DNA of 24,362 nucleotides from a virus. The notes under the pieces are model-generated. The model was not told the origin of the DNA. It saw only the letters and a list, made by a program, of their open reading frames with translations, and did not search any database. The stretch is from positions 1 through 24,362 of the IMG/VR virus record IMGVR_UViG_3300009181_000325; one strand, written 5' to 3'. Positions 544 to 15,697 of the stretch are shown one piece after another (the first letter of the stretch is position 1; the number at the start of each line of letters is the position of its first letter). A program made the position numbers and the translations under genes.

Positions 544-3500
544 ATGGCAAGAATCAAAAAATATGCGGATAATTTAACGCAAAACTTAACTTACTTTCAA
601 ACATATTTAGTAGATACTAATCCAAATTCAACATATTTTAGAATTACTGAATTTAAGGAATCATTTACTGGGGGTAAGAATGGATTTCTAATTGAAGGCT
701 CTGAACATTTAAAAGAGAGTACTGATATAAAAATAGAAATATTAGATGTTGAGGGTAATCCAATTTATTTTGAACCAGGTAACGGTGTTCCTGAATACTA
801 TGAGGGATTATCAAAAGTTGTTGCTGTTTACATATACGAAGATACTCCAATTGGTAATGCAAAAATTACGGTATTAGGAGAATTAAAAACATATATAGAT
901 ACCGATGGAGTCGTACAACCAATCCCAGACGAATGGGCTGGTATTTATAATCTTAAATGGGAGAGAGATTTTAACGTTAATAGATTACTTTCAAATGAAG
1001 ATAAAGTAAGATTTTATGTAAGACCACAAGTGAGTATTACTGAAATAGTTAAACCAATATTTTCAAATGTAGTTACAACAAAAACTCAAACAGGTTCAAT
1101 AAGTGGTATATCTCAAGCACCAAGAGAAGGTCAATCTTTAACAAATTACACATCACCAACTTCATACCTTTTAACAACAAATGATAATACTTTTTGGACA
1201 GCATCTGTTGTTGGTACATATTTAACATTTGATGATATTTCTTATAATCCATTAGTAACAAATATTATTAATAGTAGAGAAGTCATCATTCAACCACCAT
1301 ATACAATAGATAATGGATTGGTTTCAAATTTGACAGAAGTAGGATATACTGCATCATTTAATTATATTGAAGGTATTGATAATTTAAAAACTGCACTAAC
1401 TGGTTCTTTTGCAAAAATAACATTAAGTGATTTAACTACATTTGTTGGAGATTGTGCAAGAGTTAAAATATTTAGAAAATCAACAGCAGATTTATCTGAT
1501 TTTCAGTTTGTACAAGAAATACAATTAGAATCAAATGAAATTTTAGTTGATTTAGAATCTACTACAAAGAATCAAGAAAACTATGGTTTATTTGATAATA
1601 CAAATTTTAAATCATATTGGATAACATCTTCAAATAATTTAGTAACAACATTTAACCAAACATTTTTATACAATTCAGTTAAATTAAATAATACTATTGG
1701 TGTTGAAAAATTCTTTACATCAAAATCTTTTTATATAAATGAAGGAATTGAATATAGTTTAAATTTTAATGTTAAAAAAGAATCAGTTGGTAATACTAAT
1801 AATTATATTGAAGCATACCTAAGTGGTTCTAAGCAAACAACAATAAATGGTTTATTAACTACTGTACAAGTAAAACAAAGTATAGTAAAATTAGAAACTC
1901 AAAATTCTTTACTTCAAAAACAAAATATTACCAATAATATAAAAGCAGAAAAAATTGATAACGCTAAATTATATTTTGATATAAAGGGAAGTGATTGGTA
2001 TGTAGCAGATATTAGTTTAAAAGCATCGCAAGAAACGGCATTCTCTCCCGATGAAATTACATTTGTACAACCAGTACCAAGAAGCTTACCTGCAGAAACG
2101 TTTGTATATCGTTTTGAATTTTATGATATAAATAACAATTATATTCCTGTATTAGTTGAAAAAACAAAAACTTTTAATGGAGGTAATTTACAAACAATTA
2201 GAAAACAACTCAAATTAGTGCCATCATCAGCTGGATTTCAATTTGATTCTGGTTCTAACCCAGTACCACCTACGGTGATTACAATAGATGAACAAAAAAC
2301 TTTATTAACAGGTTCAGTACACTATACATCTCAATCTTTTGATTTCTTTGGTAATTCGTTATCTTCATCTCAATATACACAATCTATTTACCAACAACCA
2401 ATACCACTTTATTCTGGGAGTGGACAATATCCTGGCGTATTAAACGGAATTGGAACTGGTACTGTTTTTATGACTGTTGGTAATTTTACTGGTTCTCGTA
2501 GTGATATAAATGTTCAGCTAGTAAGATTAACTGGTGAGTGTGAGGGATTTACTGATACAATTAATATATATAAAATATTAGATGGATTTGGTGGCGTGAA
2601 TCATATCATTAGACCTTATAGAGGAACTCAAATTAGAAATAGTAGTACCGCATCTTTGGAAGTTCAAGCAGTAAGAATAGATGGTATTAATGATATTATA
2701 TTAAGTAAACAATCTTATAAAAACTTTTCAGATATACAATTACATATACTGAAAACTGCATCAGCTGATTATTCAACTCCTGAAAAATTTGTAAACTTAT
2801 CTTATGTTACATCTAGTAATTATATTAAAGGTTTAATTACCGGTTCTTTGGGTAGTAAACAAATTGATTATAATGCTATTTTTAATAGAGATTCAATTGA
2901 CTTTAGACGAATTATTTATTTAATGCCATCTAGCTCAGCAGCATCTGGACCGGCATACGCAGTTTCATCATCTGTGTTAGCATCAATTATATTAGAAGAT
3001 TTACAGGATGGATTAGATAGTGGTGTTGTTGCATATAACGCAGATTCATTTGTAATAAATCCAAGAACTGAAACTGCATTTAGACCTTCATTTGGATTTG
3101 CAACTGCATCGTTTAGTATAAGAGGAACTGCTGGTGGAAATGAATATGTAACATCATCTTTTCAGATATACCCATCAATGTCAATTAACAAAGATTGGGT
3201 GCCTGAATATTGGATGTACTATCATACACAAAGTTTACATCCAACATTAACGGTTGTTGCAAAAGATGATAATAAAAATATAATCCCATCACAAATAGTA
3301 AATGGAAATGTAAGAAGTCCATTAAATCAAACTAAAAATTTAACATTAACATTTACTTATACTGAACCTTGGACATCTGCATCGGTTAGTTTAGATAAGA
3401 CATTCACAATTATACCAGACGGAAAACCTGGAGATGAGACAATTATATTTGAAGTAAATCCAATAGCAGTAACATTGGGAGCAAATTCAAGAGGTATAGT

Positions 3501-6500
3501 TAATGATTATAGACCTTCTATTACTGATATAAAATTAAAACAGGGTTCTAGATATCTTGCATTTAGTTCAAGTGCTGGTGTATTGGATAATTTAAATACA
3601 CATGGTACTTTTTATATAGCAACCGCTTCTATAATTGAAAAAAATGTTAAAGCGGGTAATGTACAATTTACTTCATCATTTGGAGTACCATATACTTCAT
3701 CTTTAATAGTAAGTTCATCATATAATTTTACACAATTAAGTGGTAGTATTGAATACCCATTAATAATCCATCCATATTATACATCATCAATTTATACCGC
3801 TAGTGTAGTTGTAAATTATACAAAAGTATTGGAAGGAGCACCACCTATACAAATATTAATAACACCAACTGCAGTTACATTAGCTGCTGATGAAGTTGGT
3901 TATGTAACTCCAATTGGATATTCGCCAGCAAATACAACATTACAAGTTAAAGAAGGAGATGATTTTCTTACATTCACAACACGTTCAATAGCCCCTGGTA
4001 CTTGGAGAATAAATTCAATAGAAACTAGAGGAGGTTCTTTTTGGAATATACAAACTGGTTCTTTATCATCATCTTCATTAAGTACCGCAACTATAAATTA
4101 TAATAGATTTGACCACCCATATGTTTCAGCAAGTGCACTTTATACAATTCAAGTATATCCATTTGCTTTAGGAGCTGGGCATTCATATACTTCATCTATT
4201 TTTACTCGTACTCAAACATTTACAAAAAATATAACACCACCAAAAGCTCGTAGTATTGATTTTAAAGCTTCTTCATATACAGTAAACTACGATAGAAATG
4301 GTGTACCATCAATAGCATCACAATCACCAATTGTATTATCAGCAACGGCATTTAATACAACCGCATCAGCTGATAAGGTATATATTGTAATATCCGAAAT
4401 TGCGCAGGATGGTTCTGAAAGTGGAGAATCTGCACCAATAGCTGGTGATAGTGGTACAAACCCCGTAACATTTACATTACCAGATGTAAACTATGCAGAT
4501 GTAGGGCCAGAAACAATAAAAACATTCAAAGTTAAAATTACAGATGGTAATCCATATACATCACCAACATCAAATCCATATAGAGCAGAAGCTCAATTAA
4601 CAATAAGTGGTGTAAAAGCTGGAGCTGATTCATATAAATTAGTAGCATCAAACGAAAATACCACAATAACAGCAGATTTGTGGACAACACAATTTACAGG
4701 TTCTGGTATGAAAATTACCACATTTAATGGAGTTCAACAATTAATAAATGCAAATCCATTACCCCTACCAACTAACCCAAGTGATTTTAATTATCAGGGT
4801 GACCCAATTGGAGTATTAGGATATTCATCTGCATCTATATTTTCAAAATCAAATTGGATTAATACGGCAATTACTAAACCTGTATTTCCATCATCAAATC
4901 CCGCTGAAATTGGAAACATAACTACATGGACTTCGCCAGCTACAAATACATCTGGACAAATAGTTTATAGAGTAGATTTTGAAGGAGATTCATCTACAAC
5001 AAATACATTAATAAGACCTTTAGCTAGACAAACTCAATTTGTAACTCAATCAATATCAGTACAATTTACACCGCCAGCTCCGTATGATGTTAAAATGACA
5101 AATGAAAACTCATCTGTAGTTTATAAAGTAGCTGGTAGTTTATCATTTACAGGAACGGGTACAATAATTAGAGCTTATAGAGGTAGTACTGAATTAGTAA
5201 ACACAAATCCACTACCAGCAACCGATACTGATGCATATGGTACTACGGGATTATCAAAAGATAAGTGTAGAATAACTGTACAATCATATTCATCGGGTAT
5301 AATTACTTTAGGTGGTAGCTTAGGCGCAAGTAGTTTTGTTACTGGTACTCCAGCAACAATGCCAAATATAGCAGGATGGGTCAATCCAACTGCAAATCCA
5401 ACTGCGGAAATTGTATATAAAATTGAATGTGAAGGAAGACAAATTTTTTATAAAACTCAATCCCTATCAATTCAATATGAAGGTAATGTAGGTCCTGGTC
5501 TTGTTATGAGAGGTGAGTGGGATGCTACTAAAGATTATTATGGTTCGGTTGAAAATATAAATGATAGATTGGATGTTGTAACATATCAAGCCACTTCAGA
5601 TGATACAAAATATTATGCGGCAATTAGTGGTTCTGGTCCAAATACTTATGTAAACCCAACCACATCAACTTTTTATAGAGGCGCATCTCCGGGTGCTGGT
5701 TTCAACTCAATTGGAGCTCAGGCGCCAACACCAGCTACAACTCAAGTACCTCCTGTTGCATATTGGAGATATTTGGGAACGCAAGATTTCTTTGTGGCAG
5801 CTAAGTTGGCAATATTTGAAAAATCATATGTTAAGAATTCTATTAATGTTGGTACTAAAGATATTAATGGTGATTTTGCTAACATTGTAATAAATGGAGG
5901 AAGAACTGACCCATATATTGCATTAGGACAAGTTGGTAGTACTGCAGGAACTGCAGGAACTGCTGGTACATCAATTACTGGTACTGGTATTATTGGATAT
6001 GATAGACCTGGTATATTTTTAGGAATATATGAAAACGGAACATCTGGAACAACTGGTAGATTCTCAATAAAAACAACTTCTACTTCTGGTAAGGGAATGT
6101 CTTGGGATGGTGATACATTAAAAATAGTTGGAGCTATTAGACAAGTTGAACCCGGAGTTAGTGAAGGTTCTTTGAGAGGAGCATGGACTACGGGATTTAC
6201 TTATTACACAAATGATATAGTTTCATACGCAGGACAGAGTTGGCAATGTACATCAGCACAAGCACAAAGTTATCAACATGTTGCAACAAATGATACAGCC
6301 GTATTAACAGGATATCCGGGTTCAGGACCTTGGGCAATAGCAGCAGCAGCTGGTACATCTGGAACTGCTGGAAGTGGTGGTACTGCTGGAACTGCTGGAG
6401 GACCTGGTCCTGGTGTGGTTTATAGGGGTCTTTGGGCACAATTTGAAGCTGATGGTACTACTGCCAAAACATATACTAAAACTTCTACTAGACAAGATGT

Positions 6501-8655
6501 TGTACAAGGTAGTGATGGGTTATATTATTTAGCACAATCTACGCATACTACTGCAGCTGGTGGTGGTGGTACTTCTACTAGACCTATTGATGGTGGTTCT
6601 TATTCAACATATTGGGCAGGATTTGGAGCAACATTTAGTTCAATTGCAACTGGTACAATTATATCTGAGCAATCATATGTAAAAAATACTTTAAATGTTG
6701 GTACAAATACAGAAGGTAGTGAAGCTAATATAGCAATTGTGGGAGGAACTGCAACACCGTACATATCATTAGGGCAACCATTACAGGGTTATAATAGACC
6801 TGGTATATTTTTAGGAAATTCAGCAGGAGATTATAGAATGTCTATGAGTGGATCTGGTGGATTTTTTAAATGGAATGGTAGTAGTTTGGAATTGAGTGGA
6901 AATATTACAGCAACGGCTGGTTCTATTGGTAATTGGACTGTTTTAGGAGGTTTATTGAAATCGGCAAATTCAAATATACAATTAGATGGTACTAATGAAT
7001 CAATGCAAGTATTTGATTCTGGGGGTTCATTAAGATTCTCAGCAGATACAAATACAACATTACCATCAATTTCAGGCGGAGGTTCAAGTACAGTATATCT
7101 GCCGGCATTTACAATAAATAAAAGTACTACGGATGGTGGTGGGGATGCAACACCAACTTTACAAACATCATTACAAGAAGTATCATTTACAGCAACAACA
7201 GCTGGTAAGCATATTTTTAAATCAACACTAAACCCAGCAACAGCATATACTAATAATTTGCAAGGGTATGGTAGTGGTTATGCATTGTTGTATTTATCAA
7301 TGGAAGTTTGGAGTGGGGCTGGTGGTACTGGTACACAATTCGGTTCAAGTGGTACATACTATAATTATGCATATGGCAGTATTGATTATAGTAGTGGAAC
7401 GGGTGGGGGTGGTGGATACATATCTGTAACTGGTGATACTTTAATTACTTTGGATGGTGGTTCAACTATAATGGCTAAAGATATTAGTAGAGGAGATTCT
7501 ATTTTATCTTGGGAATGGAGAAACAATTTTAATAAATTTATATCAACTTTTGTTACTGGGACAAAAACAAGAAAGGTTGATAAAATATATAAAGTAAACG
7601 CTGGTGGATATGAGGTTAAAGTATCCGATTCTCACGGATTTTGGTTAGATAATAATACGGAAATTTATGTTGGTGATTTGGTTGCAGGAGAAAGTGAAAT
7701 TTATATTGAAAGTGGGGGTTCTATAAAAAAAGTTTTAGTTGATTCTATTGAAATTATAAATGAGGAGGTTGATGTATATACAATAGAAGTAGCTGGGACA
7801 AATAACTATATTTCAAATAATATTTTATCTCACAACTCTTATGGTTCTAATGGATTTTATTTCAATCGACAAACTGCATATTTAGGAACTAAGAATTATA
7901 CTGTTCAAGCTAACTTACCAACAGCAACAACATATTATGTAGTACATAGAATAGACTATCTTGTTAATTCGGATAATACTAATGTATCTCCTTACAATTT
8001 AAGTTCAGATGCAAGTATATATTATGATATGGCCTCAAAGGCAGTAACTGTAGAATTGGTATCTGCTGGAACTATTGCAAATGGTGGAGGTTTTCAAGCT
8101 GTATCATCCGATAAAAGATATATAAAATTATCAACTGTATCTACTGATTATGAAAATAAAGGAGCGGCTTCATCATTAAGTGGTGGTGTTGAAGCAAAGG
8201 GGGCATTATATCTTTCTGGAAATATAACAGATACTACCGATATAATTACGAAAGGATATGGTAAGGCATTTACGGATAGTAGTTATTGGTATGGATACCC
8301 CGCAGCAGTAAAAGCATTTGGTACACTAAATTATACATCTTCGGGAGGAGGTAACCAAGGAAATGTAGCATATTATACTGTAACAAATTCATTTAATTGT
8401 AATGCAACACCTGGTCTTACTGGTGGTGGTAAATATATAAGTATAGTATTTGCAAACGATATAGGGACTAGTAATTATAATGTAACTTTAACGCCTAGAT
8501 TTGGTACTACTGGATGGGGTGCTACTGTTCAAATATATAGTAAATCAACATCTGGGTTTACATATAGAATAGTAGATTATGGTAGTGGTGAAGCTACTTT
8601 GGGGAGTAATGGTAATACTGGTACTTATGTAGATTTTCACGTAATGGCACTATAA
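544..8655 (+). CDS. Giant modular tail fibre/adhesin (2703 aa) with embedded Hint/intein domain
   Basis: This is a very large, Ser/Thr/Gly-rich, beta-structured virion protein, most likely a tail fibre or receptor-binding adhesin. Residues 1-170 form a compact N-terminal domain that may attach to the virion. Residues ~170-1650 are a series of Ig-like beta modules; visible repeated pairs start near 972 (NPIAVTLGA) and 1107 (TPTAVTLAA), and near 1363 (NENTT) and 1515 (NENSS). Residues ~1650-2150 hold two copies of a unit with an aromatic W/Y module (RGEWDATKDYY, RGAWTTGFTYY, RGLWAQF), a SYVKN[ST][IL]NVGT segment and a [YD]RPGIFLG segment, separated by Gly-Thr-Ala collagen-like stretches. GSIGNWTVLGG near 2126 resembles central-fibre linkers. 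Residues 2294-2431 are a mini-intein-like insertion, and ~2432-2703 form the tip. There is no Shine-Dalgarno sequence before the ATG. A chaperone-like gene follows after 19 bp and glycosyltransferase genes lie just downstream. The family assignment rests on composition and layout; the receptor is unknown. Confidence 0.8.
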   Translation: MARIKKYADNLTQNLTYFQTYLVDTNPNSTYFRITEFKESFTGGKNGFLIEGSEHLKESTDIKIEILDVEGNPIYFEPGNGVPEYYEGLSKVVAVYIYEDTPIGNAKITVLGELKTYIDTDGVVQPIPDEWAGIYNLKWERDFNVNRLLSNEDKVRFYVRPQVSITEIVKPIFSNVVTTKTQTGSISGISQAPREGQSLTNYTSPTSYLLTTNDNTFWTASVVGTYLTFDDISYNPLVTNIINSREVIIQPPYTIDNGLVSNLTEVGYTASFNYIEGIDNLKTALTGSFAKITLSDLTTFVGDCARVKIFRKSTADLSDFQFVQEIQLESNEILVDLESTTKNQENYGLFDNTNFKSYWITSSNNLVTTFNQTFLYNSVKLNNTIGVEKFFTSKSFYINEGIEYSLNFNVKKESVGNTNNYIEAYLSGSKQTTINGLLTTVQVKQSIVKLETQNSLLQKQNITNNIKAEKIDNAKLYFDIKGSDWYVADISLKASQETAFSPDEITFVQPVPRSLPAETFVYRFEFYDINNNYIPVLVEKTKTFNGGNLQTIRKQLKLVPSSAGFQFDSGSNPVPPTVITIDEQKTLLTGSVHYTSQSFDFFGNSLSSSQYTQSIYQQPIPLYSGSGQYPGVLNGIGTGTVFMTVGNFTGSRSDINVQLVRLTGECEGFTDTINIYKILDGFGGVNHIIRPYRGTQIRNSSTASLEVQAVRIDGINDIILSKQSYKNFSDIQLHILKTASADYSTPEKFVNLSYVTSSNYIKGLITGSLGSKQIDYNAIFNRDSIDFRRIIYLMPSSSAASGPAYAVSSSVLASIILEDLQDGLDSGVVAYNADSFVINPRTETAFRPSFGFATASFSIRGTAGGNEYVTSSFQIYPSMSINKDWVPEYWMYYHTQSLHPTLTVVAKDDNKNIIPSQIVNGNVRSPLNQTKNLTLTFTYTEPWTSASVSLDKTFTIIPDGKPGDETIIFEVNPIAVTLGANSRGIVNDYRPSITDIKLKQGSRYLAFSSSAGVLDNLNTHGTFYIATASIIEKNVKAGNVQFTSSFGVPYTSSLIVSSSYNFTQLSGSIEYPLIIHPYYTSSIYTASVVVNYTKVLEGAPPIQILITPTAVTLAADEVGYVTPIGYSPANTTLQVKEGDDFLTFTTRSIAPGTWRINSIETRGGSFWNIQTGSLSSSSLSTATINYNRFDHPYVSASALYTIQVYPFALGAGHSYTSSIFTRTQTFTKNITPPKARSIDFKASSYTVNYDRNGVPSIASQSPIVLSATAFNTTASADKVYIVISEIAQDGSESGESAPIAGDSGTNPVTFTLPDVNYADVGPETIKTFKVKITDGNPYTSPTSNPYRAEAQLTISGVKAGADSYKLVASNENTTITADLWTTQFTGSGMKITTFNGVQQLINANPLPLPTNPSDFNYQGDPIGVLGYSSASIFSKSNWINTAITKPVFPSSNPAEIGNITTWTSPATNTSGQIVYRVDFEGDSSTTNTLIRPLARQTQFVTQSISVQFTPPAPYDVKMTNENSSVVYKVAGSLSFTGTGTIIRAYRGSTELVNTNPLPATDTDAYGTTGLSKDKCRITVQSYSSGIITLGGSLGASSFVTGTPATMPNIAGWVNPTANPTAEIVYKIECEGRQIFYKTQSLSIQYEGNVGPGLVMRGEWDATKDYYGSVENINDRLDVVTYQATSDDTKYYAAISGSGPNTYVNPTTSTFYRGASPGAGFNSIGAQAPTPATTQVPPVAYWRYLGTQDFFVAAKLAIFEKSYVKNSINVGTKDINGDFANIVINGGRTDPYIALGQVGSTAGTAGTAGTSITGTGIIGYDRPGIFLGIYENGTSGTTGRFSIKTTSTSGKGMSWDGDTLKIVGAIRQVEPGVSEGSLRGAWTTGFTYYTNDIVSYAGQSWQCTSAQAQSYQHVATNDTAVLTGYPGSGPWAIAAAAGTSGTAGSGGTAGTAGGPGPGVVYRGLWAQFEADGTTAKTYTKTSTRQDVVQGSDGLYYLAQSTHTTAAGGGGTSTRPIDGGSYSTYWAGFGATFSSIATGTIISEQSYVKNTLNVGTNTEGSEANIAIVGGTATPYISLGQPLQGYNRPGIFLGNSAGDYRMSMSGSGGFFKWNGSSLELSGNITATAGSIGNWTVLGGLLKSANSNIQLDGTNESMQVFDSGGSLRFSADTNTTLPSISGGGSSTVYLPAFTINKSTTDGGGDATPTLQTSLQEVSFTATTAGKHIFKSTLNPATAYTNNLQGYGSGYALLYLSMEVWSGAGGTGTQFGSSGTYYNYAYGSIDYSSGTGGGGGYISVTGDTLITLDGGSTIMAKDISRGDSILSWEWRNNFNKFISTFVTGTKTRKVDKIYKVNAGGYEVKVSDSHGFWLDNNTEIYVGDLVAGESEIYIESGGSIKKVLVDSIEIINEEVDVYTIEVAGTNNYISNNILSHNSYGSNGFYFNRQTAYLGTKNYTVQANLPTATTYYVVHRIDYLVNSDNTNVSPYNLSSDASIYYDMASKAVTVELVSAGTIANGGGFQAVSSDKRYIKLSTVSTDYENKGAASSLSGGVEAKGALYLSGNITDTTDIITKGYGKAFTDSSYWYGYPAAVKAFGTLNYTSSGGGNQGNVAYYTVTNSFNCNATPGLTGGGKYISIVFANDIGTSNYNVTLTPRFGTTGWGATVQIYSKSTSGFTYRIVDYGSGEATLGSNGNTGTYVDFHVMAL
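5932..5979 (+). repeat. Collagen-like Gly-x-x stretch 1 in the fibre
   Basis: This encodes GSTAGTAGTAGTSITG, a run of Gly-x-x triplets including a near-perfect GTA repeat at DNA level (ggaactgca). Such stretches in phage fibres commonly form trimeric collagen-like stalks between globular modules, which would fit a homotrimeric fibre. It also provides a site where slippage or recombination with the second stretch could change fibre length. Confidence 0.65.
6352..6414 (+). repeat. Collagen-like Gly-x-x stretch 2 in the fibre
   Basis: This is a second run of seven Gly-x-x triplets (GTS GTA GSG GTA GTA GGP GPG), ending in a Pro-rich cap just before the RGLWAQF module. With the stretch at 5932-5979 it brackets one of the two repeated fibre units. 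Confidence 0.65.
7423..7836 (+). other. Mini-intein / Hint domain inside the fibre (138 aa, Ser1 ... His-Asn/Ser)
   Basis: Fibre residues 2294-2431 carry the ordered motifs of a Hint self-processing domain. Block A is SVTGDTLITLDGG with Ser at position 1, followed by the usual DISRGDSIL turn. Block B is YEVKVSDSHGFWL, with S-x-x-H in place of T-x-x-H and His at 2364. Blocks F and G are VYTIEVAGTNNYISNNILSHN, with His2430, terminal Asn2431 and a Ser at +1. At 138 residues it has the size of a mini-intein without a homing endonuclease. Splicing would join TGGGGGYI to SYGSNGFYF, deleting 414 nt worth of protein in frame and leaving a 2565-residue fibre. Ser1 instead of Cys1 is less common but is known to support splicing through an ester intermediate. 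Cleavage without ligation is the alternative. Motif recognition is strong; activity is inferred. Confidence 0.82.
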
Positions 8656-8674: not shown

Positions 8675-9136
8675 ATGTATATAGTATATAAAGATTATCC
8701 AATTGAAGGAGATAATTGGTTTAATTATGAAAACCAACCTTTTAACCAATTTAGTAAAAGCGTACATGCACCAAATGGTAGTATGTTTTTATTATGTGAA
8801 TCGTATGCAGAGCATTCTATGTTTTATGAATCATATGAATTAGATTGGACATTAGAATGTGGTTCTATATCTCCATTAACATTTGATATAGAAAAGGCTA
8901 AAATAAAATTTATAGAAGATATAAGAAGCGCAAGGGTATTATATCTTTCAAATTTAGATGTTTATTATATGAAAGCTTTGGAGAGTGGAAATCAAACAAC
9001 TATATCCGATATTGTAACAAAAAAGCAACAATTGAGAGATTTACCAACAATGGATTTATCGGATGTAACCAAACTTTCTGAATTAATGAATAAATGGCCA
9101 ACTGAAATATTGGGTGCTTCTCCATACGAAAACTAA
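8675..9136 (+). CDS. Tail-fibre assembly chaperone-like protein
   Basis: This 153-residue protein follows the giant fibre gene by 19 bp with the A-rich leader ATATAAACAAA and no Shine-Dalgarno sequence. Its C-terminal half resembles the phage tail assembly chaperone type (Phage_tail_APC and related families): an IRSAR...YLSNLDVYYMKALESG helix, then KKQQLRDLPTM and a closing NKWPTEILG. The N-terminal half is a small aromatic-rich domain (WFNYENQPFNQF). Family members sit directly downstream of fibre genes and help fibres fold or trimerise, some staying at the tip. Position and the KQQLRDLP...WP pattern are the evidence; remote homology has not been computed. Confidence 0.62.
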   Translation: MYIVYKDYPIEGDNWFNYENQPFNQFSKSVHAPNGSMFLLCESYAEHSMFYESYELDWTLECGSISPLTFDIEKAKIKFIEDIRSARVLYLSNLDVYYMKALESGNQTTISDIVTKKQQLRDLPTMDLSDVTKLSELMNKWPTEILGASPYEN

Positions 9137-9501: not shown

Positions 9502-11670
9502 ATGAGAAAAAAGTTACTTTATGTTGCTCCACACCTTTCTACTGGAGGACAACCACAATACCTATATAAGCAGGTAAAAGAATTCATTAAAGATTTTGAA
9601 ATTGAAGTTGTTGAAATAAACAATAGTGGTGGAGATGCGTTTGTAGTTCAAAAAAATAGAATTAAATCATTATCAACTGTACATACATTGGGAGAAGATA
9701 AATCTGAAATAATTAAAATAATTGAGGATTTTAAACCTGATATAATTCATTTTCAGGAAATCCCACAATTTGATTTACCATTATTTACATTAGATGTTAT
9801 TTTTAGAAAAGATAGACCTTATTTTATTGTAGCATCTACACATGGTTCATTGACAAATCCATCTGAAATAGTTTATCATCCTGATAGATATATTTTAGTA
9901 TCTGAATGGAGTAGACAAAGATTTATTGAAACTGGAGTTGAAACTGATTTATGGGAATATCCAATTGAAGATTATACATTTGATAAAGAAGTTGCACAAA
10001 AAGAATTAGGATTAGACCCATCATATAAACATGTATTGAATGTTGGATTATTTGCACCTGGTAAAAATCAAGGTGAAATATTTGCAATAGCAAGACAATT
10101 AGAAAAATATAAAATTAAATTCCACTTTGTAGGAAATCAAGCTGGAAACTTTGAGAGCTATTGGAAACCTTTGATGGATTATAAACCTGAAAATTGTGTG
10201 ATATGGGGTGAGAGAACTGATGTTGATACATTCTACGCAGCAAGTGATATGTTTTATTTTGCTTCTAAAATAGAATTAAATCCATTATCAGTTAAAGAAG
10301 CCCTATCATATAAATTACCTTCTATATTTAGAAAGTTGCATACATATTTGGATACATACGATAATAATTCATTAGTAACTTATATTAATGATGATTTGAA
10401 ATTAACCAAGAGAATTATATTAGAAACGTTAGAGCCGGAATTTAATGAAATACCTGGTTGGTTTGCATATACGGATTTATATAATGAAATGGTTGAATTG
10501 GCTAAGGGTGGTGAAACTTTTGTAGAAGTTGGTGCATGGTTTGGTAAATCAACAAATCATTTAGCAGGAAAAATTAAAGAGTCTGGTAAAGATATTAAAT
10601 TTACATCGGTAGATACTTGGAAAGGAACGGATGATGAAGAATTACATCAAAATATAGTTGGGGCATTTAACGGAGATATATTTTATGAGTTTATAGATAA
10701 TACAGTCTTATCGGATAACTATGGTACGTTTGACACAATAAAAGATACATCACATAATGCAGCTAATCAATTTCAAAATGGTAGTATAGATTTTATTATG
10801 TTAGATGCTGGGCATTCATATGAATCATTGATGGAAGATGTTAAATTTTGGTATAACAAAGTAAAACCGGGTGGAATTATTAGTGGAGATGATTATGGTG
10901 TATTTCACGGAGTAACACAAGCAGCAAATGAATTTTTCTATGAGCAGTTTGATAAAGGATTTCGTTCATTCATTCGTAAGAAACCCCGTATTCAAATAAA
11001 ACATATGTTGACTAGGCCGGATGATATGAGAGAAAGAGTATCTATTCAATCTATTAAACAATTGGAAAAATATGGTATGTATTACGAACCAATTGTAAAT
11101 GAACCATATGAAGGATTTGCACCTGCTGAAAATTGTAGAAGACCTGAGCATATAAGTAAAGATAATAAGCCGGGAGAGTTATACCCTGGTGCTGGTTTAG
11201 GATGGATGACTGGTAGACATTATGGTTGTTATTTAGCACATAGAATGGCATTAGAAACTATGGATACTGAAAACTTTGATTACACTTTAGTATTTGAAGC
11301 CGATGCATTTATTTATACTGGTTTAGAAGAATTTGTTGAAATAGTACATAGAGCATGTTTCTTATCAGAAAGAGATAATGTACCTTTTATTTCATTCGCA
11401 GATAATCCATCAAGAGAAAAAGAAAAAATAGATGAGTTGTTTTCAAAGACAGCAGCAAATCAAGACCTTGCACATTGTTATCTAATTCCTAATAGAGAAA
11501 AGCAATGGTGGGCAGATAGACTTAAAGATTGTGGATGGGATGTTGGTGACCTTTGGTATAATCACGTATTTATCAATCACCCAAGACCAAGATATACAAC
11601 AAACAAAATGTATAGTAAGCAAGCAGAGGGATTTTCTTTGTTGGATTTAACAGTTAAAACTTGGAGTTAA
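9502..11670 (+). CDS. Three-domain glycosyltransferase-methyltransferase-glycosyltransferase
   Basis: This 722-residue protein shows three enzyme-like domains. Residues 1-330 resemble a GT4/GT-B glycosyltransferase: VAPHLSTGGQPQYL at the N-terminus, a DIIHFQEIP segment, LNVGLFAPGKNQGEIF, and an ELNPLSVKEAL donor-site-like motif. Residues 335-485 are a class I SAM methyltransferase of the Methyltransf_24 sort: FVEVGAWFGKS (341-349 region), VDTWKGTDDEE (D371), MLDAGHSYES (D435) and PGGIISGDDYG (456-466). Residues 495-722 resemble GT25 transferases: GRHYGCYLAHRMA (571-583) and LVFEADAF (E599, D601; EDD is usual). The domains suggest addition and methyl capping of a glycan. The target could be the fibre, capsid or cell surface. 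The 3' end overlaps the next gene by one base (TAATG), so the two are probably translated together. Domain assignments are from motifs only. Confidence 0.78.
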   Translation: MRKKLLYVAPHLSTGGQPQYLYKQVKEFIKDFEIEVVEINNSGGDAFVVQKNRIKSLSTVHTLGEDKSEIIKIIEDFKPDIIHFQEIPQFDLPLFTLDVIFRKDRPYFIVASTHGSLTNPSEIVYHPDRYILVSEWSRQRFIETGVETDLWEYPIEDYTFDKEVAQKELGLDPSYKHVLNVGLFAPGKNQGEIFAIARQLEKYKIKFHFVGNQAGNFESYWKPLMDYKPENCVIWGERTDVDTFYAASDMFYFASKIELNPLSVKEALSYKLPSIFRKLHTYLDTYDNNSLVTYINDDLKLTKRIILETLEPEFNEIPGWFAYTDLYNEMVELAKGGETFVEVGAWFGKSTNHLAGKIKESGKDIKFTSVDTWKGTDDEELHQNIVGAFNGDIFYEFIDNTVLSDNYGTFDTIKDTSHNAANQFQNGSIDFIMLDAGHSYESLMEDVKFWYNKVKPGGIISGDDYGVFHGVTQAANEFFYEQFDKGFRSFIRKKPRIQIKHMLTRPDDMRERVSIQSIKQLEKYGMYYEPIVNEPYEGFAPAENCRRPEHISKDNKPGELYPGAGLGWMTGRHYGCYLAHRMALETMDTENFDYTLVFEADAFIYTGLEEFVEIVHRACFLSERDNVPFISFADNPSREKEKIDELFSKTAANQDLAHCYLIPNREKQWWADRLKDCGWDVGDLWYNHVFINHPRPRYTTNKMYSKQAEGFSLLDLTVKTWS

Positions 11671-13294: not shown

Positions 13295-15697
13295 ATGAAC
13301 GGATTATCAAAATTTTTAGTAGAATCAATATTATTGGAAGCGGAATCCATAAACAAAGTAATTGTTGTTTATTCGGGCCGCTTTCAACCTTTTCATAAGG
13401 GCCACTTCGCAACGTATCAAAACCTCATAAAGAAATTTGGGTCTGATAGTGTTTATATCGGAACTTCCAATGTTACCGATTCAAATAAATCTCCTTTTAA
13501 TTTTAACGAAAAAAAAGCAATAATGACAAAGATGTTTGGGATACCATCATCTAAAATTATTAATGTTAAAAATCCATATGCTCCAAATGAAATCTTAAAC
13601 AAATATAATGAAGATACAACTGGTTTAATAGTTGTAGTTGGTGAGAAGGATGAAAATCGTTTAGGTGGTAAATACTTTACGCCATATAAAGGTAAGGTAA
13701 CCGAACCATATTTAGATAGAGGATACGTTTATGCAGCACCATCTGAATCAAATCCTATAAGTGGTACTGATGTTCGTTATTGGTTAAGTGCTGGTAGTGA
13801 AGCTGAAAGAAAAAAGAATTTTACAAAAGCATACCCAAAGTTTGATGACCAAATATTCAAAATGATTACTCTTAAGTTGAAGAAGCTTAAAGAATGTATT
13901 AACGAAGAAATCAGTTTAAATGTAAAAGTTGGAGATACTCTATTAATGGGTAAGTTCAAAAACAAAAAAGTATTAGTAAAAGATATTGGTAAGGATGAAT
14001 GGGGAATGCCAACAATCAATGGTAAGAAAGCAGTAACTTTCAGAATACCTAAAAAAGATAATTTAAAAGAAATGGGATTGGGTGGTGGAGCTGGTGTTGG
14101 TTTAAGTTTGCCAGGTGGATATATTAATGGAGCACCTGATAGTAAAGATGTTAAGAAAAATAGTAAGAAACTTAACAATAACGGAATGAGTGGATATGAG
14201 GAGATTGATGAAGAAAATAACATTTTAGAATACACTGGAAACGAAGCGTTTGATAATGATACGGGTGGCACTACTGGACACACTTGGAATAAAGATTGGG
14301 AAGAATATGATAAAGCTGAATATTATTTAGAAGATTTAGAAGGTTGGGAAAATATGAATCATAAGAGTGATAAAGATGACAAAATAAGAAAAAACAAAGT
14401 TCCAATTTTTAATCACGACGATACAACTGATAAATACAATCGTATATTAAAGCATGATTTAAAATCTCCTAATGATTTTATAAAAGAATCATTAATAATG
14501 GAAGGTGGAGCTTATGGACATATGGCACATCCATTTGATATTGAGATGGGTTTAACATTTGGTGACCTTAAACAAATAGTAGTAAGAGCTCTTAATGGTG
14601 ATTTGGAATTAGCAAGAGAAAAGACTGATGGGCAGGCATTAGCAATTAGTTGGGTAAATGGTAGATTGGTTGCAGCTCGTAACAAATCTCACTTAAAAGA
14701 TAAAGGAGTTGGTGCTATGACAATAGGACAGGTAGCAGATAAGTTTGCTGGTAGAGGTGGATTAACCGATGCTTACAACTTTGCTATGCAGGATTTATCT
14801 AAAGCAATAGGAGCACTATCCGAACCTCAACGTAAGAAGGTTTTTAAGGATGGTAGTTCGTTTATGAATTTGGAAGTAATATATCCAACCTCTGTAAACG
14901 TAATCCCCTACAATCAACCCCTATTAGTATTTCATGGTACTTTTGATTATGATATGTCTGGTACTATAATTGGACAAAATCAAGATGCAGCAAAAGTATT
15001 AGGTGGAATGATTAAGCAAGTAAATGCACATGTTCAATCTAAATACACAATACAGGGACCTCCAATGCAAACACTCCCTAAAACCGAACATCTTTCTAAA
15101 TTACAAGGAAAGTATTTGGGGATGATTTCTAAACTACAATCTGAATTTGGATTAGCTGACTCAGATGGTGTAGCAGATTACCATCAGGCTTGGTGGACAA
15201 ATTTTGTAGAAAAGGGTGCAAAGAAATTAGATGCACAACAAAAGATAGGATTGATTAAAAGATGGGCTTTTTTAGATAAAAGTTTTCGTATAGCGGATAT
15301 AAAGGATGATAAGATAAGAGCTTGGGCTGAACAAACGGATAAGCAAGACCAACAAAAGATATCAAAACAAAACTTAATGAGATTTGAAGAAATATTCTTA
15401 GGTGTTGGTGCAGATGTATTATCATTTATGACATCAGTATTAACTGCAAATCCTGCAGAAGCTACAAAACAAATGAAAGCAAAATTACAAAGTACAATAT
15501 CGCAAGTAAAAGCAAGTGGTGACCCTAAAAAGATTGCAAAACTTAAATTAGAATTAAGTAGAATGCAGGCTTTAGGTGGATTTGATAAAATCGTACCAAA
15601 TGAGGGATTGGTATTTGTATATGGTGGAAACACCTATAAACTAACAGGTGCATTCGCACCCCTAAATCAAATTTTAGGCATATTTTTTGATTCTTAA
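13295..15697 (+). CDS. Adenylyltransferase-like (HxGH) domain fused to a ligase-like covalent nucleotidyltransferase
   Basis: This is an 800-residue protein with two nucleotide-transfer domains. Residues ~20-190 form an HxGH-type nucleotidyltransferase fold like NMN or pantetheine-phosphate adenylyltransferases: VVYSGRFQPFHKGH (H34, H37), a VVVGEKDEN segment, and ISGTDVR (155-161), the second conserved motif of the NadM/NadR group. Residues ~195-395 are a charged linker with a small beta segment. From ~404 (GGAYGHMAHPFD) begins a domain with ligase-superfamily motifs in order: KTDG with Lys443 as the likely nucleotidylated residue, FMNLEVIY (523-530), EGLVFVY (770-776) and YKLTG (Lys782). NAD-related synthesis coupled to nucleic-acid end repair is one guess. 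The sequence FLVESILLEA (7-16) is echoed by FIKESLIMEG (395-404), just before each domain, and looks like a prohead-protease site. The substrates are unknown. Confidence 0.75.
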   Translation: MNGLSKFLVESILLEAESINKVIVVYSGRFQPFHKGHFATYQNLIKKFGSDSVYIGTSNVTDSNKSPFNFNEKKAIMTKMFGIPSSKIINVKNPYAPNEILNKYNEDTTGLIVVVGEKDENRLGGKYFTPYKGKVTEPYLDRGYVYAAPSESNPISGTDVRYWLSAGSEAERKKNFTKAYPKFDDQIFKMITLKLKKLKECINEEISLNVKVGDTLLMGKFKNKKVLVKDIGKDEWGMPTINGKKAVTFRIPKKDNLKEMGLGGGAGVGLSLPGGYINGAPDSKDVKKNSKKLNNNGMSGYEEIDEENNILEYTGNEAFDNDTGGTTGHTWNKDWEEYDKAEYYLEDLEGWENMNHKSDKDDKIRKNKVPIFNHDDTTDKYNRILKHDLKSPNDFIKESLIMEGGAYGHMAHPFDIEMGLTFGDLKQIVVRALNGDLELAREKTDGQALAISWVNGRLVAARNKSHLKDKGVGAMTIGQVADKFAGRGGLTDAYNFAMQDLSKAIGALSEPQRKKVFKDGSSFMNLEVIYPTSVNVIPYNQPLLVFHGTFDYDMSGTIIGQNQDAAKVLGGMIKQVNAHVQSKYTIQGPPMQTLPKTEHLSKLQGKYLGMISKLQSEFGLADSDGVADYHQAWWTNFVEKGAKKLDAQQKIGLIKRWAFLDKSFRIADIKDDKIRAWAEQTDKQDQQKISKQNLMRFEEIFLGVGADVLSFMTSVLTANPAEATKQMKAKLQSTISQVKASGDPKKIAKLKLELSRMQALGGFDKIVPNEGLVFVYGGNTYKLTGAFAPLNQILGIFFDS
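15661..15688 (+). terminator. Weak intrinsic terminator candidate overlapping the end of the nucleotidyltransferase gene
   Basis: The hairpin CCTAAA-TCAAAT-TTTAGG (15661-15678) is followed four bases later by six T residues (15683-15688), just inside the 3' end of the reading frame. The stem is short and AT-rich and overlaps coding bases, so this is a weak call. It does precede a promoter-like motif and the packaging genes. Confidence 0.25.

Follow-up and report, generated by a model that had tools for sequence, protein, structure and literature searches.

A Ser1 Hint domain resembling type A bacterial intein-like domains in the fibre tip of uncultivated tailed phages

The window analyzed here, i.e., the whole stretch of 24,362 nucleotides, is the 24.4-kb virus record IMGVR_UViG_3300009181_000325 of a T4-like tailed phage. 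On its plus strand, positions 544..8655 encode a giant tail-fibre-like protein of 2703 amino acids, in a reading frame that is open throughout, and this protein hosts a Hint domain of the intein or bacterial intein-like (BIL) kind. The domain spans positions 7423..7836 (+), corresponding to 138 amino acids (residues 2294-2431) that read SVTGDTLITL...SNNILSHN and are followed by a Ser. These are exactly the coordinates and residues given in an earlier note on this DNA, which had proposed a Ser1 mini-intein without endonuclease; indeed, no endonuclease insert was found in the 138-residue segment. The Hint domain lies between two parts of a tip domain, both with approximate boundaries. The upstream part (7135..7422, +) ends in the Gly-rich loop ...SSGTGGGGGYI, and the downstream part (7837..8160, +) ends near GGGFQAVSSDKRYIKL and is homologous to NFVEIKAGGIQVVSD..YV of the relatives. 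It is followed by a distal, exchangeable C-terminal module (8161..8652, +), given that the window and the related fibre of contig L002 are poorly alignable past the tip domain.

The segment contains the Hint blocks A (SVTGDTLITL), B (VSDSHGFW), F (VYTIEVAGTNNYI), and G (SNNILSHN|S). A search with Hint profiles, the check that the earlier note had recommended, matched the Pfam family Intein_splicing (PF14890) to the segment with an E-value of 2.4e-8 and 34.3 bits, just under the gathering cut-off of 35.8, and to the whole fibre protein with an E-value of 5.5e-7. The profiles TIGR01445 (intein_Nterm, E 0.0014) and TIGR01443 (intein_Cterm, E 0.05) gave weaker matches, both below cut-off, and the relative L011 clears the PF14890 cut-off with 36.3 bits. 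When the segment was compared with the PDB by phmmer, the best match was the bacterial intein-like domain 2lwy (E 5.5e-4), and a profile of 10 relatives retrieved the BIL2, DnaB, and CDC21 inteins together with 2lwy, with E-values from 4e-8 to 2e-6. The AlphaFold2 model of the Hint domain, built from 22 sequences, has block-mean values of the predicted local distance difference test (pLDDT) of 75-96 in the Hint region. By VIA alignment, this model matches the DnaB mini-intein 1mi8 with a Z-score of 20.0 and a root mean square deviation of 1.8 A over 137 residues, the Tetrahymena BIL2 with a Z-score of 19.9, and the C. thermocellum BIL 2lwy with a Z-score of 18.6, while Foldseek matches it to BIL2 with an E-value of 1.7e-9. 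The VIA-align matches shown for the model are all inteins, BILs, or Hedgehog. The segment 7423-7836 is a Hint domain, with a homology that goes far beyond chance.

Viral contigs were scanned with the segment, with alignments of the segment, and with its downstream flank. More than 50 contigs were retrieved, which yielded 31 distinct full-length Ser1 Hints, window included, carried by fibre-tip domains of uncultivated tailed phages. All of them are found inside long open frames, 249-339 residues from the C terminus. Residue conservation was counted over these 31 sequences. Ser1 (7423..7425, +), the predicted nucleophile of an N-terminal N-O acyl shift, is conserved in all of them, as is His71 of the block B motif Ser68-x-x-His71 (7624..7635, +), the predicted acyl-shift catalyst, in which position 68 is Ser in 29 members and Thr in 2. 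The pair His137-Asn138 of block G (7831..7836, +), predicted to act in Asn cyclisation and C-terminal cleavage, is likewise invariant. In block F (VDVYTIEVAGTNNYI, 7768..7812, +), Val118, Asn128, and Tyr129 are found in 31/31 sequences and position 120 is Thr in 20 and Ser in 11. The catalytic residues are thus invariant, although the pairwise identity of the Hint drops as low as 28% even within a subset of 22 sequences. The earlier note had staked its proposal on Ser1, His2430, and Asn2431, and no substitution of any of the three occurs in the 31 sequences.

The residue that follows Asn138 is not conserved in the family. It is Ser in the window (7837..7839, +), while across the 31 members it is Pro (13), Val (6), Thr (4), Ser (3), Ala (2), Asp (1), Phe (1), or Ile (1), meaning that Ser or Thr stands at +1 in 7/31 and that the +1 nucleophile is missing in 24/31. 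This position has changed at least 11 times on the Hint tree, and the near-identical pair L191/L193 has Ser in one member versus Pro in the other. The acyl-shift and Asn-cyclisation positions are thus invariant, and the residue for trans-esterification is not kept. The designation Ser1 mini-intein therefore captures the right anatomy, a Ser1 Hint in a structural fibre tip, but is too narrow in function, since plain splicing as the function of the whole family is not supported with so variable a +1 position.

In the 14 sequences that were aligned first, both flanks of the Hint are homologous, with an upstream LYLEAV...VIG-like strand motif and a downstream FRY...NFVEIKAGGIQVVSD motif, and the members found via the downstream flank have a homologous downstream flank too. 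This homology of the flanks, which for the upstream part also extends across relatives, indicates that all these Hints occupy the same insertion site within one tip domain. The Gly-rich flank described by the earlier note is present in the window but is not general to the family. A first AlphaFold model had poor flanks; a second one, made on L018, a relative with Pro at +1, predicts the strands before and after the Hint with confidence, the upstream flank consisting of beta strands with block-mean pLDDT mostly of 67-93. From this model, the strands that flank the Hint may pack as one domain. Matches to the Hint took up the results of the structure searches, in which no fold was assigned to the flanking tip domain. 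The host site is a variable region of fibre tips with exchangeable C-terminal modules, where the mean identity is 27% in the upstream flank versus 43% in the Hint. The Hint persists while the extreme C-terminal module differs among relatives, the position of the distal module being filled by Peptidase_S74, gp53-like tail-fibre, or other modules.

The Hint is missing from one homologous fibre, L107. With the joined flanks of relatives, this fibre gives a single continuous alignment (E 1.3e-31 for L020), whereas its alignment to an intact fibre such as L020 splits into two pieces, so that the comparison with an intein-free homologue envisaged by the earlier note bears out a contiguous tip domain. 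A single Hint-less homologue is compatible with gain of the Hint as well as with its loss. HTVC008M gp059 and gp062 were discarded as further Hint-less homologues because their alignment is limited to the S74 end of gp059. Apparent long matches to PHROG 8215 and 5668 were also discarded as multi-domain stitching; the Hint alone matches no tail PHROG. A tblastn search of isolated phages with three family Hints retrieved no close relatives, its only match being to a Salmonella phage terminase (E 0.005), and what the fibre relatives of isolates have in common is limited to the S74 end or the N-terminal part. The search with the distal tip of the window retrieved no relatives, and the matches from the scan of genome contigs were limited to two archaeal ones, which cover the last 21-33 residues.

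The ratio of nonsynonymous to synonymous substitution rates (dN/dS) was determined for eight pairs, by the simple Nei-Gojobori method applied to short stretches, of which some have few substitutions, and in pairs that are not all independent. With this scope, the values were 0.11-0.43 for the Hint versus 0.29-0.83 for the flanks, and the Hint was below both flanks in 8/8 pairs. The distances between Hints follow those of the downstream flank (Mantel r 0.54, 0/2000 permutations as high) and those of the upstream flank (Mantel r 0.62, the permutations having been applied to the downstream flank only). Synonymous divergence of the Hint is about that of the flanks in most pairs. In the pair formed by the window (7423-7836) and L002 (4001-4414), it is 0.12 in the Hint, less than the 0.30 and 0.51 of the flanks, which hints at local exchange at the Hint in this pair. 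Taken together, the purifying selection, the distances that track those of the flanks, and the catalytic invariance point to a Hint that has long been resident under purifying selection and that is neither decaying nor recently homed. The fossil considered in the earlier note is at odds with these values of dN/dS and with the invariant catalytic residues.

Among known systems, type A BILs (2lwy; Tetrahymena BIL2, 6tmm/6y75) are similar to the family in predicted fold, length, terminal His-Asn, and lack of a conserved +1 nucleophile, and they also occur in variable proteins (PMC7765530). They are different in that the family has Ser1 in 31/31 members while the solved BIL2 entry has Cys1 (C1A), and in that the family has one fixed site in a phage fibre-tip domain, a Hint-less homologue, and often Pro at +1. 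Class 1 mini-inteins (Ssp DnaB 1mi8, Npu DnaB 4o1r, and gp41-1 6qaz) share with the family blocks A, B, F, and G, a fold with Z-scores of about 18-20, and Ser or Cys at position 1, and the window shares with them also the Ser at +1. In the family, on the other hand, +1 is not conserved, position 120 in block F is Thr or Ser, and the host is a structural fibre and not a conserved enzyme site. Membership of the family in the canonical inteins is unproven, given that +1 is not conserved and that splicing is a prediction from sequence. Three other assignments were ruled out: a homing intein because the 138 amino acids have no insert and the homing endonuclease domain is missing, a class 3 intein because Ser1 is invariant and position 120 of block F is Thr or Ser and no Cys nucleophile, and a Hedgehog Hog domain because after His-Asn a beta-rich fibre domain resumes with its second part, in place of a sterol-recognition region.

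The Ser1 fibre-tip family is not the only case of Hint domains in virion proteins of phages. Virion or fibre proteins of Erwinia jumbo phages and Phage NCTB have a C-terminal Cys1 Hint (L121 2023-3456, L122 2017-3459, and L123 1-3483) and are annotated as virion structural protein or, in Phage NCTB, as large intein domain protein. These Hints, such as that of Erwinia phage Yoloswag gp103, are similar to the family in their HN end and in their structural or tail-fibre hosts, and differ in having Cys1, a location at the extreme C terminus, and a distant sequence. In the literature searched, no functional study of the Hints of Yoloswag gp103 or NCTB was found, nor any paper on tail fibres that contain an intein or BIL. 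Phage proteins of L031, L034, L053, L055, L059, and L065 also carry Cys1 Hints at their very C-terminal end, with 2-14 residues past SHN and preceded by Ig-like-looking repeats. In L083-L091, tandem Hints occupy the same fibre-tip site, where a Cys1 Hint ending in THN|V is followed by a 7-residue linker and a Ser1 Hint ending in SHN|D (about residues 697-847 and 855-997 of the open frame in L083). At 8/31 loci, the next gene 3' of the fibre encodes a small protein of 235-252 amino acids in which a Cys1 Hint lies close to the C-terminal end and the N terminus is like MALQTSGAISL.DIH.EAGG (L026 1576+, L092 3810+, L113 3823+, L103 3693+, L095 3778+, L100 1195+, and L167/L174 4275+).

The interpretation that we favor, with a probability of roughly 0.6, is that of a Ser1, type-A-BIL-like autocatalytic Hint that is fixed in a fibre-tip loop between two groups of beta strands and that undergoes self-cleavage. 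BILs lack the +1 nucleophile; those of type A keep His-Asn and can splice, although cleavage products dominate (PMC4031507; see also PMC7765530), through an N-terminal thioester, C-terminal Asn cyclisation, and attack of the freed amine on the thioester (PMC4031507). In the fibre, the Hint probably cuts or rearranges the tip during maturation. After translation, Ser1 would undergo an N-to-O acyl shift assisted by the block B His71, which would give an ester and not a thioester given that Ser1 takes the place of Cys1, and Asn138 would cyclise with the help of His137 and break the bond between Asn138 and +1. This bond is Asn-Pro in 13/31 members. FlhB and YscU undergo an intein-like self-cleavage between Asn and Pro, after which the pieces remain associated (PMC3189125); Pro at +1 is thus compatible with an Asn-type cleavage. 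The analogy is confined to this Asn-Pro step, and FlhB/YscU are not counted as relatives. Since no +1 nucleophile is conserved, the chain would usually be cut at one border of the Hint or at both, and some ligation might occur when the free amine attacks the Ser1 ester. The Hint would then be released, and the halves of the mature tip would be nicked but packed together, as the analogy suggests, or linked to each other with the Hint gone. Canonical splicing could still take place in members with Ser or Thr at +1, window included.

Several points weigh against this interpretation. The ester formed by Ser1 transfers its acyl group to amines less readily than a thioester of Cys1 does, which makes ligation without a +1 nucleophile doubtful and may render N-terminal cleavage slow. 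Given that the window has Ser at +1, its own chemistry could be plain splicing. The activity of the Hint in the family, the processing of any member, and the role that a nicked or Hint-free tip would play are all inferred.

The same observations bear on the alternatives. A true splicing intein would be excised and the tip halves joined, through the class 1 pathway in members with Ser or Thr at +1, and otherwise by attack of an amine on the Ser1 ester. The window has all the intein blocks together with Ser at +1, the tip domain of the Hint-less L107 is contiguous, and ligation without +1 is possible in type A BILs (PMC4031507). Nonetheless, +1 is Pro, Val, Ala, Phe, Ile, or Asp in 24/31 members and drifts freely, the tandem Hints of the L083 group have Val and Asp at this position, and the weakness of Ser1 esters as acyl donors relative to thioesters, a matter of general chemistry, applies here as well, which makes splicing as the function of the family rather unlikely. 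The invariance of Ser1 and His71 in the face of a variable +1 would also suit a covalent transfer, in which the Ser1 ester is attacked by a nucleophile of another chain, of a partner virion protein, or of a cell-surface molecule, and the fibre becomes cross-linked in a Hedgehog-like manner. The Cys1 Hint encoded by the gene next to the fibre at 8/31 loci and the Cys1 Hints that terminate virion proteins of Erwinia jumbo phages are in line with it. However, Asn138 and His137 are invariant too and would be unneeded for a pure N-terminal transfer, no acceptor was identified, and esters donate weakly to external nucleophiles, so that this alternative appears highly improbable. It is just as hard to credit that the Ser1 ester, in some phages with a neighbouring Cys1 thioester, serves not for splicing but as a one-shot chemical glue or trigger that covalently tethers the tip to the surface of the host or to a partner protein. 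A Hint without catalytic activity, retained in the tip as a structural insert or as an intein fossil, would account for a stable insertion at one site and for the missing endonuclease, but four catalytic positions are invariant in 31 sequences and selection is stronger on the Hint than on its flanks, which leaves it with a very slim chance.

The fibre gene is followed by a small gene (8675..9136, +) that resembles those for tail-fibre assembly or chaperones. Its product matches phrog_20196 (E 1.3e-18), a family of unknown function, and gives weak matches below cut-off to phrog_4912 'tail fiber assembly' (E 0.0065) and Phage_tail_APC (E 0.087); a Hint match was not found in it. Just 3' of the fibre, a fusion of a glycosyltransferase and a methyltransferase (Glycos_transf_1 and Methyltransf_24, 722-735 amino acids) is encoded in the window (9502-11670), in L002 (6026+), and in L018 (5911+), and given this adjoining gene, glycosylation of the fibre is possible. 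Residues 1880-1906 of the fibre have a CBM_5_12-like match (E 1.7e-4, below cut-off). The terminase, portal, and head protease genes of the window match PHROG head-and-packaging families. Judged by the terminase, the isolates closest to it are Flavobacterium phage immuto, with 57% identity, and Microcystis phage Mel-JY01, with 56%. Further downstream (13295-15697), the window encodes an 800-amino-acid protein with a cytidylyltransferase-like N terminus; in immuto, a large gene upstream of the terminase is annotated as nicotinamide mononucleotide adenylyltransferase.

A self-processing module at the fibre tip is also represented by the Peptidase_S74 intramolecular chaperone, which in many relatives is found in the same protein as the Hint. 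It is unrelated to the Hint, being a C-terminal module with a Ser-Lys dyad that releases itself after trimerisation (PMC8326128). If the Hint is active, the tips of these fibres would be chemically edited after translation, beside the known self-cleavage of S74 and in many members together with it, and the mature receptor-binding protein would differ from the gene product. The natural role of BILs is unsettled, and in this family the same catalytic residues have been kept at a single fibre-tip site across divergent phages while the splicing nucleophile drifted. The family offers a direct experimental handle on the purpose of BILs.

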